Shown: positions 509 through 61,215 of the stretch, piece by piece
Layout of the letters: every line of letters begins with the position of its first letter
How positions within the stretch are numbered: position 1 is the stretch's first letter
Source: Halobacillus litoralis
GTDB lineage: Bacteria > Bacillota > Bacilli > Bacillales > Halobacillaceae
Length of the DNA stretch: 64,000 nucleotides
Assembly (NCBI RefSeq): GCF_020524085.2
Contig: NZ_CP129016.1
Location: 1,110,001 to 1,174,000, forward strand
Reading direction: 5' to 3'
Program-made: the position numbers and the translations under genes
Notes under the pieces: model-generated
What the model was told of the DNA's origin: nothing
What the model saw: only the letters and a program-made list of their open reading frames with translations
The model's database searches: none

Positions 509-609
509 TTAGTTGAATAGGTTAGGCTTTTTTTATGTAGTTTATCCATAGAGAAGAAACATATTTTTCGTGGATATCGTGAAACCTATAGGAAAAAGGA
601 GTGATCGGG

Positions 610-1446
610 ATGCACACCATGTGGAAAGGGACCATCAGTTTCGGACTAGTGAATATTCCGGTGAAACTGCATGCAGCAACAGAGAATAAGGACATTAAAC
701 TGCGTCAGCTTCATGAAGAATGTAAATCACCAGTCGAATATGAGAAACGCTGCCCGGTATGTGATCGGGATATTGAGAGTGAAGAGATTGTCAAAGCTTA
801 TGAATATGCGAAGAACAAGTTTGTCGTTTTAGATAAAGAAGACTTGGAACAGTTGAAGAAAGAACAGGAAGATAAAGCAGTTGAAATCATCGATTTTGTA
901 AAATTAGAAGAAATTGACCCGATATATTTTGAGCGGAGTTATTTTATTTCTCCAAGCGAAGGAGGATCGAAAGCATACAGTCTCCTTCGTCAGGCGCTTG
1001 GAGATACGGAGAAGATCGGGATTGCTAAAATCATCATCCGCTCCAAGGAACAACTGGCGATTGTCCGGGTGTATGAGAATACGCTTGTCATGGAAACCAT
1101 CCATTATCCTGATGAGGTCAGGTCCGTCCAGGATGTGCCGAATGTTCCTGAAGAAACAGAGTTAAGTAAGAAAGAATTGAGTACGGCTGTTACGTTGATC
1201 GATCAGTTGACGGCGGAATTCGATCCTGAAAAATATAAAGATGAATACCGAACGGCGCTGATGGAACTGATTGAAGCGAAGAAAAACAATGAGGAAGTCA
1301 CAACGGCTAAAGATAAGCCGAAGCCGGATAACGTAACGAATTTAATGGATGCTTTGGAAAAATCGTTAGAGAAAACAAAAGGGCCCAAGAAGAAGAAAAC
1401 AACGAAGAAAAAGACGACGACATCTGGCAAGAAAAAGACTTCCTGA
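610..1446 (+). CDS. ku: Non-homologous end-joining protein Ku
   Basis: Bacterial Ku binds broken DNA ends as a homodimer and recruits LigD for template-independent repair, chiefly in spores and stationary cells. The 278-residue product opens with the typical MHTMWKGTISFGLVNIPVKL stretch and has the Ku core over about residues 10-190. A very Lys-rich tail from about residue 255 probably binds DNA. The start at 610 is preferred over a GTG at 601 because AAAGGAG lies 8 bases upstream and it fits the family N-terminus. No ligD is visible; it could lie upstream of the window or elsewhere. Confidence 0.95.
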   Translation: MHTMWKGTISFGLVNIPVKLHAATENKDIKLRQLHEECKSPVEYEKRCPVCDRDIESEEIVKAYEYAKNKFVVLDKEDLEQLKKEQEDKAVEIIDFVKLEEIDPIYFERSYFISPSEGGSKAYSLLRQALGDTEKIGIAKIIIRSKEQLAIVRVYENTLVMETIHYPDEVRSVQDVPNVPEETELSKKELSTAVTLIDQLTAEFDPEKYKDEYRTALMELIEAKKNNEEVTTAKDKPKPDNVTNLMDALEKSLEKTKGPKKKKTTKKKTTTSGKKKTS

Positions 1447-7574: not shown

Positions 7575-7603
7575 GAAAATCACCAAGCGAATAAGTTTAT
7601 GAA

Positions 7604-7698
7604 ACTACTAGGGGAGCCTGAATGGGCTGAGAGGAAAGCGAGCAAGCTTTCTGACTCTTACGAACCTGATCTGGTTAATGCCAGCGGAGGGAAGTAGT
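7604..7698 (+). ncRNA. TPP riboswitch 1 (upstream of thiW)
   Basis: P1 forms from ACTACT (7604-7609) and AGTAGT (7693-7698). Between them lie the conserved TPP-aptamer segments GGGGAGCC, GGCTGAGAGG, CGAACCTGATCTGG, and GCCAGCGGAGGGAAG. It is followed by an intrinsic terminator at 7733-7761, so control of thiW is probably transcriptional attenuation when TPP is bound. Confidence 0.95.
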
Positions 7699-7732
7699 CT
7701 GACGATACGTGTATCGACTTACTGCATACCAG

Positions 7733-8291: not shown

Positions 8292-8300
8292 TACACGGAA

Positions 8301-8391
8301 ACTGCTAGGGGCGCGAGTATTCGCTGAGATAAGGACATATTCCTTGGTCCCTCAATACCTGATCCGGGTCATGCCGGCGGAGGGAAGTAGT
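8301..8391 (+). ncRNA. TPP riboswitch 2 (upstream of tenA)
   Basis: P1 forms from ACTGCT (8301-8306) and AGTAGT (8386-8391). Conserved parts include CTAGGGG, CGCTGAGA, ACCTGATCCGGGTC, and GCCGGCGGAGGGAAG. Unlike the first riboswitch, no terminator follows; a hairpin covering the tenA ribosome site does (8416-8439). Confidence 0.95.
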
Positions 8392-8415
8392 AACAATCCC
8401 CTTCTGTCCTCTAGT

Positions 8416-22139: not shown

Positions 22140-22153
22140 ATTTGTTTCACTAT

Positions 22154-22695
22154 ATGGCAGGTTTGTGGAAGACTCAGTTTCGAGACGTTTCTGGGTTCGT
22201 TGCTGTATTGTGCGTTAGGGGTGGCTGGGAAGCTGCTCGCTTTCCTGTGGGGGAGTGCCGAGCTTCCTCGGGCTAACGCCCTGCGGGATCTCGCCGATCT
22301 CCTTTCTCCCACGGGAGTCTCGCAGCTTCCCAACCACCCCTTTCGATGTAAGGGATAAACGAACCCTTATACCAAGTTGGATGGTTCTTCCGCTATACAA
22401 CTGTTAGAGGTGTAAAGCGCTGTGGATCAAGCTTTAACGTACTGTTGAGATGTTCTAGTCATCCACTTCCCATAATCATACGAGCTGACCTTTTAGGAGT
22501 GGTTTCGAGAATCTTCCTTGGCAAAGGGGCGGAGGGAAACGGTGAGACTCCTATGGGACGTGTGGGACAGGTGAGACCCCGGAAGGCGGAGCTTGAGGAG
22601 GCTCACCGCCCGCCCCATGGAAAGCGAACTGTTTCCCGGAGCCACGAAACTCACACAAACATCTCGAAACTGAGTCTTCAAGAAAAGGGAGTGTA
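22154..22695 (+). repeat. Intergenic TIR element, copy B (full length)
   Basis: Perfect 18-base terminal inverted repeats: GAAGACTCAGTTTCGAGA (22168-22185) and its reverse complement (22662-22679), 512 bp end to end. Outer flanks shared with other copies are ATGGCAGGTTTGTG on the left and AAAAGGGAG on the right. Hairpin module 1 spans 22218-22340 (arms of 19 bases). Module 2 spans about 22525-22640 and contains a long imperfect inverted repeat. No coding sequence is credible inside. Confidence 0.9.
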
Positions 22696-22803
22696 TATGG
22701 AATAGAAAGGAATTGGTGTGCTGAACTGGTACTTCTTCTCAGGGATATTGTTTGCTCTGATGCAAATAGTAAACGTGAAGATTAATCCTGAGGAGGATGT
22801 AAG

Positions 22804-30849: not shown

Positions 30850-30878
30850 AAAGAACCACGCCCGGTGTGGTTCTTTTT
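30850..30878 (+). terminator. Terminator after PAP2-like gene
   Basis: Ten-base arms (30850-30859 and 30867-30876) with a 7-base loop and a T run. Confidence 0.85.
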
Positions 30879-30888
30879 ATTCTGTATA

Positions 30889-31145
30889 ATAGCAGGATTG
30901 TGTAAGACTCGATTTCGAGATGTTTCCGGGGTTCGTTCCCTGGTTGAGCGTCAGTGGTGGTTGGGAAGCTACTCGCTTCCCCCCCCCCTTTTAATGTAGG
31001 AGAAAAACGACCCCTTTCACTATTCTGGTGTTTATAATCTTAAAACGCTCTATAATAAGCTTTTCGAATACAGAATAGATTCATTGGAGTTGATTCCCAT
31101 CTACTCCCCAAAAGTCTCGAAACTGAGTCTTCAACAAAGGGGATC
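30889..31145 (+). repeat. Intergenic TIR element, copy C (short, poly-C)
   Basis: Terminal inverted repeats at 30903-30920 (two mismatches to consensus) and 31115-31132 (perfect), 230 bp end to end. It keeps the left half of module 1 (GGTTGGGAAGCTACTCGC) but then has a run of ten C (30979-30988) and joins the region after the hairpin; module 2 is missing. It looks like an internal deletion derivative. Confidence 0.85.
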
Positions 31146-31226
31146 TTTACTTTCAAAAAAAGTAGACAAGTTTTCGGTGTCTCTATGCATATAAATGAAC
31201 TAACGAAACAATAGGAGGGGTACGGC

Positions 31227-32401: not shown

Positions 32402-32437
32402 TAGACACAGGACTCACCGCTGAGTTATAAAACTAAA

Positions 32438-32815
32438 TGGCAGGATTGTGGAAGACTCAGTTTCGAGGTGTTCTTGGGGTTCGTTGCCTGGTTGAGCGTC
32501 AGGGGTGGTTGGGAAGCCACTCGCTTTCCTGTGGGGGAGTGGCAAGCTTCCTCGGGCGTTTTGCCGCACTAAGGGATCTCGCCTATCTCCTTTCGGGGGG
32601 TCTCGCAGCATCCCAACGGGGTTTCGAGATACTTATATGGCAAAAGGGCGGAGGGGAATGGCGAGACTCCTGCGGGAAAAAAGTGCAGGGTGAGACCCCA
32701 CAGGACGCAGTCCGAGGAGGCTCACCGCGCTCCCGCGGAAAGCGAGCTATTCCCCGCATTCCCCATCCACTCAACAAAAGTCTCGAAACTGAGTCTCCAA
32801 GTAAAGGGAGCTTAT
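32438..32815 (+). repeat. Intergenic TIR element, copy D
   Basis: Terminal repeats at 32451-32468 and 32781-32798 (one mismatch each to the 18-base consensus), 348 bp end to end. Left flank ATGGCAGGATTGTG (32437-32450) and right flank AAGTAAAGGGAGCTT match other copies. Module 1 (about 32501-32620) and module 2 (about 32644-32762) are almost adjacent; the roughly 180-bp A/T-richer spacer found in copies B and F is absent. Confidence 0.9.
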
Positions 32816-32839
32816 CTGAAAAAGGGGATATGTAAGGTG

Positions 32840-43436: not shown

Positions 43437-43454
43437 GCATGATTTATTAAAGAA

Positions 43455-43682
43455 TATGGCAGGAGGATAGCGTAAGACTTAGGTTCGAGAGTTTGACACG
43501 ATGTGGGGGGCGTTCGATGTTGGCACAGGACGTGCCGTACTTAATCGAACTTCCTCTATCCTTTTGCCCCTCCTCGGACTTCGTTTTGCGAGGTCTTACC
43601 GTTTCCCAACCCCCCCTGACTACTAATGAGGCAAACGAACCCCGGTTATCTCGAAAATGAGTCTTCAACAAACGGGAGCTTT
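43455..43682 (+). repeat. Intergenic TIR element, copy E (divergent, short)
   Basis: Terminal repeats at 43473-43490 and 43649-43666 match the 18-base consensus with a few changes; 194 bp end to end. Flanks ATGGCAGGA and AACAAACGGGAGCTTT match other copies. The interior keeps only fragments of the GC-rich modules and has its own hairpin (GTTCGAT...ATCGAAC, about 43510-43552). Confidence 0.75.
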
Positions 43683-43718
43683 TATAGGCGGTAATAGAGT
43701 ACGGGGTACTGTTGATAA

Positions 43719-60046: not shown

Positions 60047-60594
60047 ATGGCTTTTATGAATCAATCTGTGATCATTGGAAAATCTGTAGAAGAAGTTTTT
60101 TCGATGGCGACGGATTTCAACAACAGCCCTAAAATTATGGATACAGTCATCGATGTACAACTATTGAGTGAAGGACCTGTCAAAGAAGGATACAGGTTCC
60201 CCAGGAAACTCGAGAAATCAGAGGGAGAAAAGCTCGTTCTATCATTGAGGTCACCGACTTTGATCCCAATCGTAAATACTCTGTCCGCAGTCATCAGCAT
60301 GGATTGGATTTACGGTATCATTATGAGTTCGTACAAACTTCGGAAGGAACAAGGGTAGACTTCCAAGGGGAGCTTTACACGGAAGGCTTACGAAACAAAT
60401 TGATGAAACCGCTCATCAAGCAGATTATCAAAAAAGAAGATCAAGACCATCTTCAGCATTTGAAGAAGTTTATCGAATCTTCTTCTTATGGTGGTATAAT
60501 AAGAATAAGCTATGGATCATGTATGAAAGGCCTCTCCATTATCCAATATGGAAAGAGGTCTATTTTTTATATACAAAACTCCCTCTTCAACTAA
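60047..60594 (+). pseudogene. SRPBCC-family protein, broken by one-base deletion
   Basis: The start (ATG 60047 after GAGGAGG) reads MNQSVIIGKSVEEVFSMATDF and VKEGYRF, typical of START/polyketide-cyclase-like SRPBCC proteins. After 60199 the matching frame changes: ETREIRGRKARSIIEVTDFD, then GLDLRYHYEFVQTSEGTRVDF, in a frame one base off. A missing base at the C4 run (60200-60203) would restore it. The domain ends near 60480; beyond, the frame reads through a hairpin to a stop at 60594, so the original end may also be altered. Ligand unknown. Confidence 0.75.
60525..60566 (+). terminator. Possible terminator after SRPBCC gene
   Basis: AGGCCTCT (about 60527-60534) pairs with AGAGGTCT (about 60553-60560) with one wobble, then ATTTTTTAT. 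Confidence 0.6.
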
Positions 60595-61142
60595 ATGATT
60601 GTAGAAGACTCGATCACAAGAAGTTTCGGGGTTCGTTGCTTTGTTGAGCGTCAGGGGTGGCTGGGAAGCAACTCGCTTTCCTGTGGGGGAGAGCCGATCT
60701 TCCTCGGGCTACCGCCCTGCGGGATCTCGCCTATCTCCTTTCTCCCACGGGAGTCTCGCAGCTTCCCAGCCACCCCATTCCAAGAAGGTGAGAAACGAAC
60801 CCCTCTACTGTGGAAGGGTGCCTTCCACTATCCTGGTGTTATAAGCGTAAAGCGCTCTATAGCAAGATTTTCACATTCAAAGTAGCGCCCTTAGGAGTTC
60901 ATTCTCCTCCAATTACCAAGTGGATAAAAAGCCGATTATTCCGAAAGTGGTTTCGAAATATTGATATGGCAAAGGGGCGGAGGGGAATGGCGAGACTCCT
61001 GCGGGAAAAAAGTGTATGGTGAGACCCCACAGGACGCAGTCCGAGGAGGCTCACCGCACTCCCGCGGAAAGCGAGCTATTCCCCGCAGCCCCCACCCACT
61101 CAACAAAAGTCTCGAAACTGAGTCTTCCACAATCAGGAGCTT
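60595..61142 (+). repeat. Intergenic TIR element, copy F (full length)
   Basis: Left TIR (60604-60621) is decayed; the right (61110-61127) is perfect; 524 bp end to end. Module 1 spans about 60653-60777 and module 2 about 60974-61088, with a spacer as in copy B. Right flank CACAATCAGGAGCTTT resembles other copies. No gene inside is credible. Confidence 0.88.
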
Positions 61143-61215
61143 TAGTTGAAGGGCGGGGTGGGTAATAGAAGGGTATAGTAGGAATTTAAAGATATATGGA
61201 AAGGAAAGATTATAG

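Follow-up and report, generated by a model that had tools for sequence, protein, structure and literature searches.

What kind of element carries conserved sequence beyond its own terminal inverted repeats? This question is raised by the 64,000-nt stretch of DNA analyzed here (the window), which comes from a genome whose closest named relatives are Halobacillus. A first-pass annotation had described six intergenic copies in it that share 18-bp terminal inverted repeats (TIRs), and had taken them for non-autonomous mobile elements while remarking that their conserved flanks were not what simple target duplications would give. The evidence presented below leads us to favor, at a probability of roughly 0.8, the view that these elements belong to an integron-like gene-cassette system of Bacillaceae, as dispersed cassettes without genes; recombination in this system is something we infer from the sequences compared.

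Six elements in the window

A sequence scan recovered all six copies (Table 1), with GAAGACTCAGTTTCGAGA matching the window 10 times at three or fewer mismatches, compared with 0.11 matches expected from shuffled sequence. Copy 1 is incomplete and lies on the minus strand, as originally described, with a single end and an extent that we corrected from 79–508 to that given in Table 1. Copy 6 does belong to the family, with a left TIR that falls below the three-mismatch scan; its left core lacks bases that its orthologues in two other genomes (G013 and G008) have kept. The grouping of the copies as one family holds for their ends and fails for the interior of copy 5, which differs from the others. 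Inside copy 5 we detected a match to Bacillaceae-1 RNA, a family for which an Rfam scan found no match in 20 other element loci of the same genome, ruling it out as a general component of the elements. The copies were said to lack coding sequence, and indeed none of the four frames of 108–132 aa that overlap them had a Pfam match at E < 0.05. Their reported high density, one per about 11 kb, is a local property and not a genome-wide one: there are six copies in 64 kb, whereas a genome of 3.95 Mb with 126 copies would lead one to expect 2.04 (Poisson P for six or more = 0.018).

Two further features of the window were observed in passing. A Ku protein gene adjoins copy 1 (601–1446, plus strand; Pfam Ku, E = 9e-57), and two TPP riboswitches (7600–7709 and 8297–8402) lie no more than 0.8 kb apart.

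Table 1. Coordinates of the six elements and related features. Positions are those of the window, except in the last row, where they are those of locus L287 of H. halophilus; the matrix and model R1 are described in the text.
Feature	Position	Strand	Details
Copy 1, truncated, c-end only	79..~521	minus	junction-site match 475-519; matrix 26.2 bits at 475; R1 476-500
Copy 2, full element	22142..22704	+	interior with two GC-rich palindromic modules
Copy 2, left c-end	22143-22187		matrix match 22143 (-), 22.2 bits
Copy 2, right g-end	22660-22704		matrix match 22660 (+), 38.3 bits
Copy 3, internally deleted	30878..31157	+	c-end left, g-end right; matrix 30878 (-), 31113 (+)
Copy 4, both ends present	32426..32823	+	matrix 32426 (-), 32779 (+)
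Copy 5, same ends, different interior	43444..43691	+	matrix 43647 (+); c-end <15 bits
Bacillaceae-1 RNA match inside copy 5	43496..43560	minus	Rfam RF01690, 46.5 bits, gathering score 35
Copy 6, full-length	60586..61152	+	decayed c-end <15 bits; intact g-end 61108-61152, matrix 61108 (+)
280-aa recombinase gene, H. halophilus L287	10137-10976		dyad starts 102 nt after stop codon

Genome-wide distribution and anatomy of the elements

The family extends well beyond the window. The 17-bp TIR core matched the 3.95-Mb genome 122 + 130 times at two or fewer mismatches, corresponding to about 126 copies, while the reversed control pattern matched 1 + 0 times. Among 61 genomes searched, TIR matches were present in 36 of 37 from the same family (the window genome included), at 0 to 371 matches per genome, and in 5 of 24 from outside the family. 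A search of phage records gave no match.

We examined the anatomy of the elements in a sample of 178 TIR ends, forming 77 pairs, drawn from the window and from loci fetched from the same genome. The distance between TIR ends was 494–530 bp in 40 of the 77 elements, the remainder being shorter or longer. The conserved flanks noticed earlier are real and longer than had been claimed, running for about 26–27 nt on each side, after which conservation stops. They are of two kinds: the c end, of CAGG type, reads TTATTMAACTAWATGG / CAGGATTGTGG, and the g end, of GGGAGC type, reads outward as CAACAAACGGG / AGCTTTAGTKGAA. All 67 fully classed pairs combined one c end with one g end (35 c..g and 32 g..c); the 10 further pairs had an unclassed end. 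As had been suspected, these flanks do not behave as simple target duplications, since in the 67 pairs no direct repeats of 3–10 nt at offsets of 22–35 nt from the TIR rose above the shuffled null.

The interior contains two GC-rich palindromic modules, and, with the c and g ends taken as reference, the left module pointed one way in 42 pairs, the other way in 16 and unclearly in 9. A GC-rich hairpin module of the interior (window 60925–61105; L247–L249) also occurs in genome G006, where TIRs are nearly absent, and on plasmids of Priestia, Peribacillus, Niallia, Bacillus and Paenibacillus, and thus represents a wider repeat of its own. An open frame of at least 150 codons would be interrupted by only 1 of 64 copies for which 700 nt was available on both sides. 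The genes around 53 classed elements were arranged in tandem in 33 cases, divergently in 11 and convergently in 9, compared with 22, 5 and 5 in the window.

Element ends correspond to cassette junction sites

The sequence adjoining the 18-bp TIR forms a junction site, in which two short arms, TTCAACTA and TAGTTGAA, surround a G-rich spacer. In low-copy relatives, the motif was located in gene-cassette arrays; in the array at L092, from another Halobacillus (G012), 15 repeats of the type TATCTYGAWWTCRAGTCTTCAACTAACGGGGGCTTTAGTTGAATA lie between genes on a single strand. A 45-nt matrix trained only on these 15 junctions found nine sites in the window, every one of them at an element end; the two ends that it missed were the c-ends of copies 5 and 6, both of which are decayed. 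Applied to 20 other fetched loci (381 kb), which were chosen for a TIR-like motif, a dyad, an array-type site or a plasmid match and are thus not a random sample, the same matrix found 150 sites, compared with 0.0 in shuffles; the weakest of these loci were L101 and L117, with one match each, and L103 and L128, with three each. The control loci L060–L091 gave 22 matches in 655 kb, some of which are element ends. In the larger arrays, the sites face predominantly one way (11/11 in L093, 12/12 in L094, 10/10 in L100, 14/14 in L130 and 16/18 in L095), and the window genome itself has small arrays of four (L131) and five sites (L132).

We then scored the element ends of the window genome against the L092 matrix, and 67 of 75 c ends, 86 of 88 g ends and 10 of 15 unclassed ends reached 15 bits or more. 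The outermost 12 nt by themselves match the right arm of the cassette site, scoring above zero in 72 of 75 c ends and 78 of 88 g ends, while DNA further out did so in only 10 of 75 and 15 of 88. A second model, R1, was built from 44 sites of several arrays, with three array sites from the window genome and no window sequence, and it marked the same nine places in the window (E = 2.4e-8 to 3.1e-3). In a class-wide sample, at least 44 of 299 genomes had one or more matches at E 0.01, and G000, G116 and G576 each had 18 or more; these counts are lower bounds because 21 candidates were scored per genome under stricter filters. At the level of sequence, both ends of the element are the type of site that separates cassettes in the one-way arrays of relatives, and the puzzling flanks outside the TIR are the outer halves of such junction sites.

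The family could also be read as a classical MITE, with TIRs of about 44 bp, that was moved by a DDE transposase since lost, the arrays having simply taken over similar sequences. Inverted ends, high copy number, absence of coding capacity and intergenic position are all as expected of a MITE, and the conservation of the outer halves exceeds what targets hit by chance would need. We nevertheless consider this explanation improbable, given the absent target duplication, the strict pairing of one c with one g outer half, and the fact that the ends score as the cassette junctions of another species.

We also asked whether the sites are conserved as structures. As single-stranded DNA, the dyad has a strong predicted fold (z = -9.4), and yet across 131 sites the arms showed no covariation, with 635 paired positions in the core arms compared with a shuffled mean of 647, and the inner palindrome likewise showed none (465 paired compared with 471.7). 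On this ground we set aside a folded-hairpin site: the absence of covariation speaks against recognition of a conserved hairpin and fits half-sites that would be re-assorted at each exchange. An Rfam scan of seven array loci returned one TPP riboswitch only.

These observations bear on single-strand transposition of the IS200/IS605 or REP type, in which subterminal hairpins and a preferred target would be used without duplication. The missing duplication and the strong folding of the dyad would suit such a mechanism, as would a Y1 transposase found in five of seven Halobacillus genomes searched, that of the window included. The same transposase was not found in the array-bearing genomes G012 and G005, however, which led us to reject it as the mover, and the non-covarying arms, together with exchange points that lie within the spacer rather than at the hairpin foot, make this route very unlikely.

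Cassette movement and cassette contents

Returning to the cassette interpretation, we compared cassettes among genomes. A cassette with a TPR gene is shared by G012 and G004 at 94.7% identity over 588 nt; its flanks are unrelated, and the match has both of its ends within junction sites. A second pair, from G005 and G020, was 92.6% identical over 458 nt, a match that begins at the dyad's outer edge and extends to GGGGGC, and a c-type cassette common to G002 and a Pseudalkalibacillus plasmid was 83.5% identical over 486 nt, starting at the GGCAGG core. Several other homologous cassette pairs end elsewhere than at sites or cores. Judging from these alignments, some cassettes recur between species, with their junctions at the GGG of the site.

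Among 52 cassette proteins scanned, models of GNAT acetyltransferases were the commonest (Acetyltransf_1 in six), followed by NUDIX, DinB, MFS and others, and four families of a defence library were matched by one or two members each. Similar cores are present on other Bacillaceae plasmids, and a stretch of a Pontibacillus plasmid had none at the same threshold. The cat gene of the Staphylococcus aureus plasmid pC194 is flanked by two cores, whose junctions are of the CAGG and GGG types (L116, 520–1430), and a dfrK gene ends at one core (L246, 2350–2380); these cases are resemblances of short sequences, and we regard them as candidate transfers. Within a cassette region of Peribacillus (L245, 18837–22442) lies what we take to be a Tn554-like set, made up of two tyrosine recombinases together with a small partner gene.

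A 280-aa tyrosine recombinase is associated with the arrays

Listing PF00589 matches in array-rich genomes revealed a 280-aa tyrosine recombinase in or at the arrays. Peribacillus frigoritolerans (G116) and Pontibacillus marinus (G242) each have two genes for it, G576 has two identical copies and H. halophilus (G010) has a single one. At H. halophilus L287, the gene, the dyad and a same-strand, one-way run of junction sites follow each other in line (Table 1). A 3′ stretch, TGAAATAATTGRTATTAA, recurs in L279, L281, L286 and L287, and in L279 and L281 it runs into a core, L281 reading GGCAGGATTGTGGAAG, as do the c-ends of the window. No such spacer was found within 260 nt after the enzyme gene at the two G576 loci or at L286.

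The enzyme is XerA/XerC/XerD-like. Its best model was NF040815, at 215–224 bits, with one of four proteins passing the cut-off of 220, while all four failed the integron-integrase model TIGR02249 (95.6–106.1 bits, compared with a cut-off of 265). Residues R138, K162, H229, R232, H255 and Y264, which we take to be the catalytic set, were invariant in 11 of 11 sequences. Of 1985 candidates, 1170 belonged to the family at a threshold of E ≤ 1e-30, and the named members among the 120 listed belong to Bacillaceae and close relatives. We conclude that this tyrosine recombinase is likely the enzyme that acts on the junction sites.

No gene of the 280-aa type was found in the window genome, where the PF00589 matches were Xer-like genes, 26–31% identical to the 280-aa enzymes where compared, and a 76-aa frame, which we rejected as the enzyme at 26–31% identity over 61 aa. 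Judged by length and score, the family was present in one (H. halophilus) of nine Halobacillus-family genomes with PF00589 listed. Other candidates were also set aside. A scan of 10 proteins at the first array loci showed no integrase beside the dyads. It yielded two integrases in all, a phage-type one 7 kb from the dyad in L102 and an XerS-like one of a Pseudalkalibacillus plasmid, and a comparison with 350 ORFs from 20 array loci gave no relatives for either. A small serine recombinase, present in seven of seven Halobacillus genomes, had no junction site nearby in L235–L238; in two of these loci (L235, 2274–2957; L237, 2132–3055) its gene, presumably yneB, lies beside a divergent gene that we take to be lexA.

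Orthologous loci point to old insertions

Comparison of orthologous loci yielded one candidate empty site, TTCAAGTATAGGGAGCTGGTCTGAA, at the place of copy 4 in Halobacillus sp. Nhm2S1, with a close variant in H. faecis (loci L060 and L064); at the place of copy 3, the loci L060–L064 were occupied or held a remnant. Clean empty sites are scarce because 14 of 20 loci of the window genome that were mapped in Nhm2S1 (G008) keep at least one TIR-like match, mostly as a shortened element. By eye, the other six comprised four remnants, the one candidate empty site and one locus with nothing. At the place of copy 6, also examined by eye, the element had the same orientation in the window genome, G013, G002 and G011, was internally deleted in G008, had its interior inverted between the same ends in G007 and was reversed as a whole in G016; G009 held a remnant, and G015 and G005 had none. 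A second interior inversion distinguished the element at 1217324 of the window genome from its counterpart in G008. Given these shared positions, deletions and inversions, most copies look old, with an interior that flips or shrinks.

Positions largely shared with Nhm2S1 would also be expected if the elements were kept as structured RNA or DNA, such as an sRNA, a terminator or a nucleoid site, with an accidental resemblance to cassette sites. The palindromic modules and the Rfam sRNA match in copy 5 would fit this as well. That match recurred in none of the other loci scanned, however, the gene orientation around the 53 elements resembles that in the window, and a chance origin of the ends is excluded by the matrix and R1 matches, so that we give this possibility very little weight.

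A proposed mechanism

Under the gene-less cassette interpretation, the 280-aa enzyme would bind the two arms, cut in the GG of the spacer and exchange strands conservatively. A cassette circle with the dyad site GGG/CAGG would recombine with a core-like chromosomal target, TGG/AGC, and this exchange between circle and target would give the two mixed junctions observed at the elements. In this scheme the dyad would contribute the 18-bp TIRs as its accessory arms, while the conserved flanks outside them would be half-sites of the target, with the interior later having flipped or shrunk in many copies. The outer half-sites sum to about 32 bits, compared with 15.9 bits for 126 chance targets, implying either that the targets were already core-like repeats or that the halves moved with the element. 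A 26-nt search for empty targets gave 15 matches in the window genome, all 15 of which are ends of existing elements, and we therefore rejected the idea of dispersed empty targets there. Since no 280-aa enzyme was found in this genome, its copies are probably immobile now. Of the initial description as non-autonomous mobile elements, mobility and the lack of coding sequence are retained, and the transposon is replaced, given the missing target duplication and the cassette junctions at the ends.

Implications and relation to known systems

More broadly, and at somewhat worse than even odds, Bacillaceae may possess a distinct and widespread cassette capture system, analogous to integrons, with its own 280-aa XerA-like integrase, double-stranded att sites and more than 100 gene-less cassettes scattered through Halobacillus genomes; the same system may have been what first mobilized classic Gram-positive resistance genes (pC194 cat and dfrK). 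If true, such a parallel system would explain how accessory genes are gathered in Bacillaceae and would suggest where the single-gene insertions of staphylococcal plasmids came from; the putative integrase and its sites would be a directly testable enzyme-site pair, and the repeat family would become a readable record of old insertions. We found no description of this system in the literature searched, a scope to which subscription papers and preprints do not belong.

With MITEs and the bcr repeats of Bacillus cereus, the elements share short length, intergenic position, high copy number and inverted ends, and they differ from MITEs in having no target duplication. Xer-dependent mobile modules, such as pdif modules, likewise combine inverted arms, a short spacer, conservative exchange and an Xer-like enzyme, whereas the system proposed here has long arrays and a 280-aa enzyme family of its own, which shares about 30% identity with the host Xer-like gene.

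Complete integrons and CALIN have been described as extremely rare in Firmicutes (PMC9024848). The likeness to integrons lies in small accessory genes that are lined up in one-way arrays with a recombination site after each gene; in a distinct site that adjoins a tyrosine recombinase gene at the head of the array, here in H. halophilus; in gene-less cassettes and, as in CALIN, sites without an enzyme in many genomes; and in cassettes exchanged as units between arrays, as for the G012/G004 pair, several other pairs having ended away from sites. At L287 of H. halophilus, gene, site and array occur together as they do in an integron. The enzyme, in contrast, lies outside the IntI family (95–106 bits against TIGR02249, compared with 265), and the sites are without structural covariation, unlike attC, which is recognized as a folded single strand and whose structure is conserved instead of its sequence. 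With the IntI model failed and no attC-like covariation, the system proposed here would work like an integron without being filed as one.
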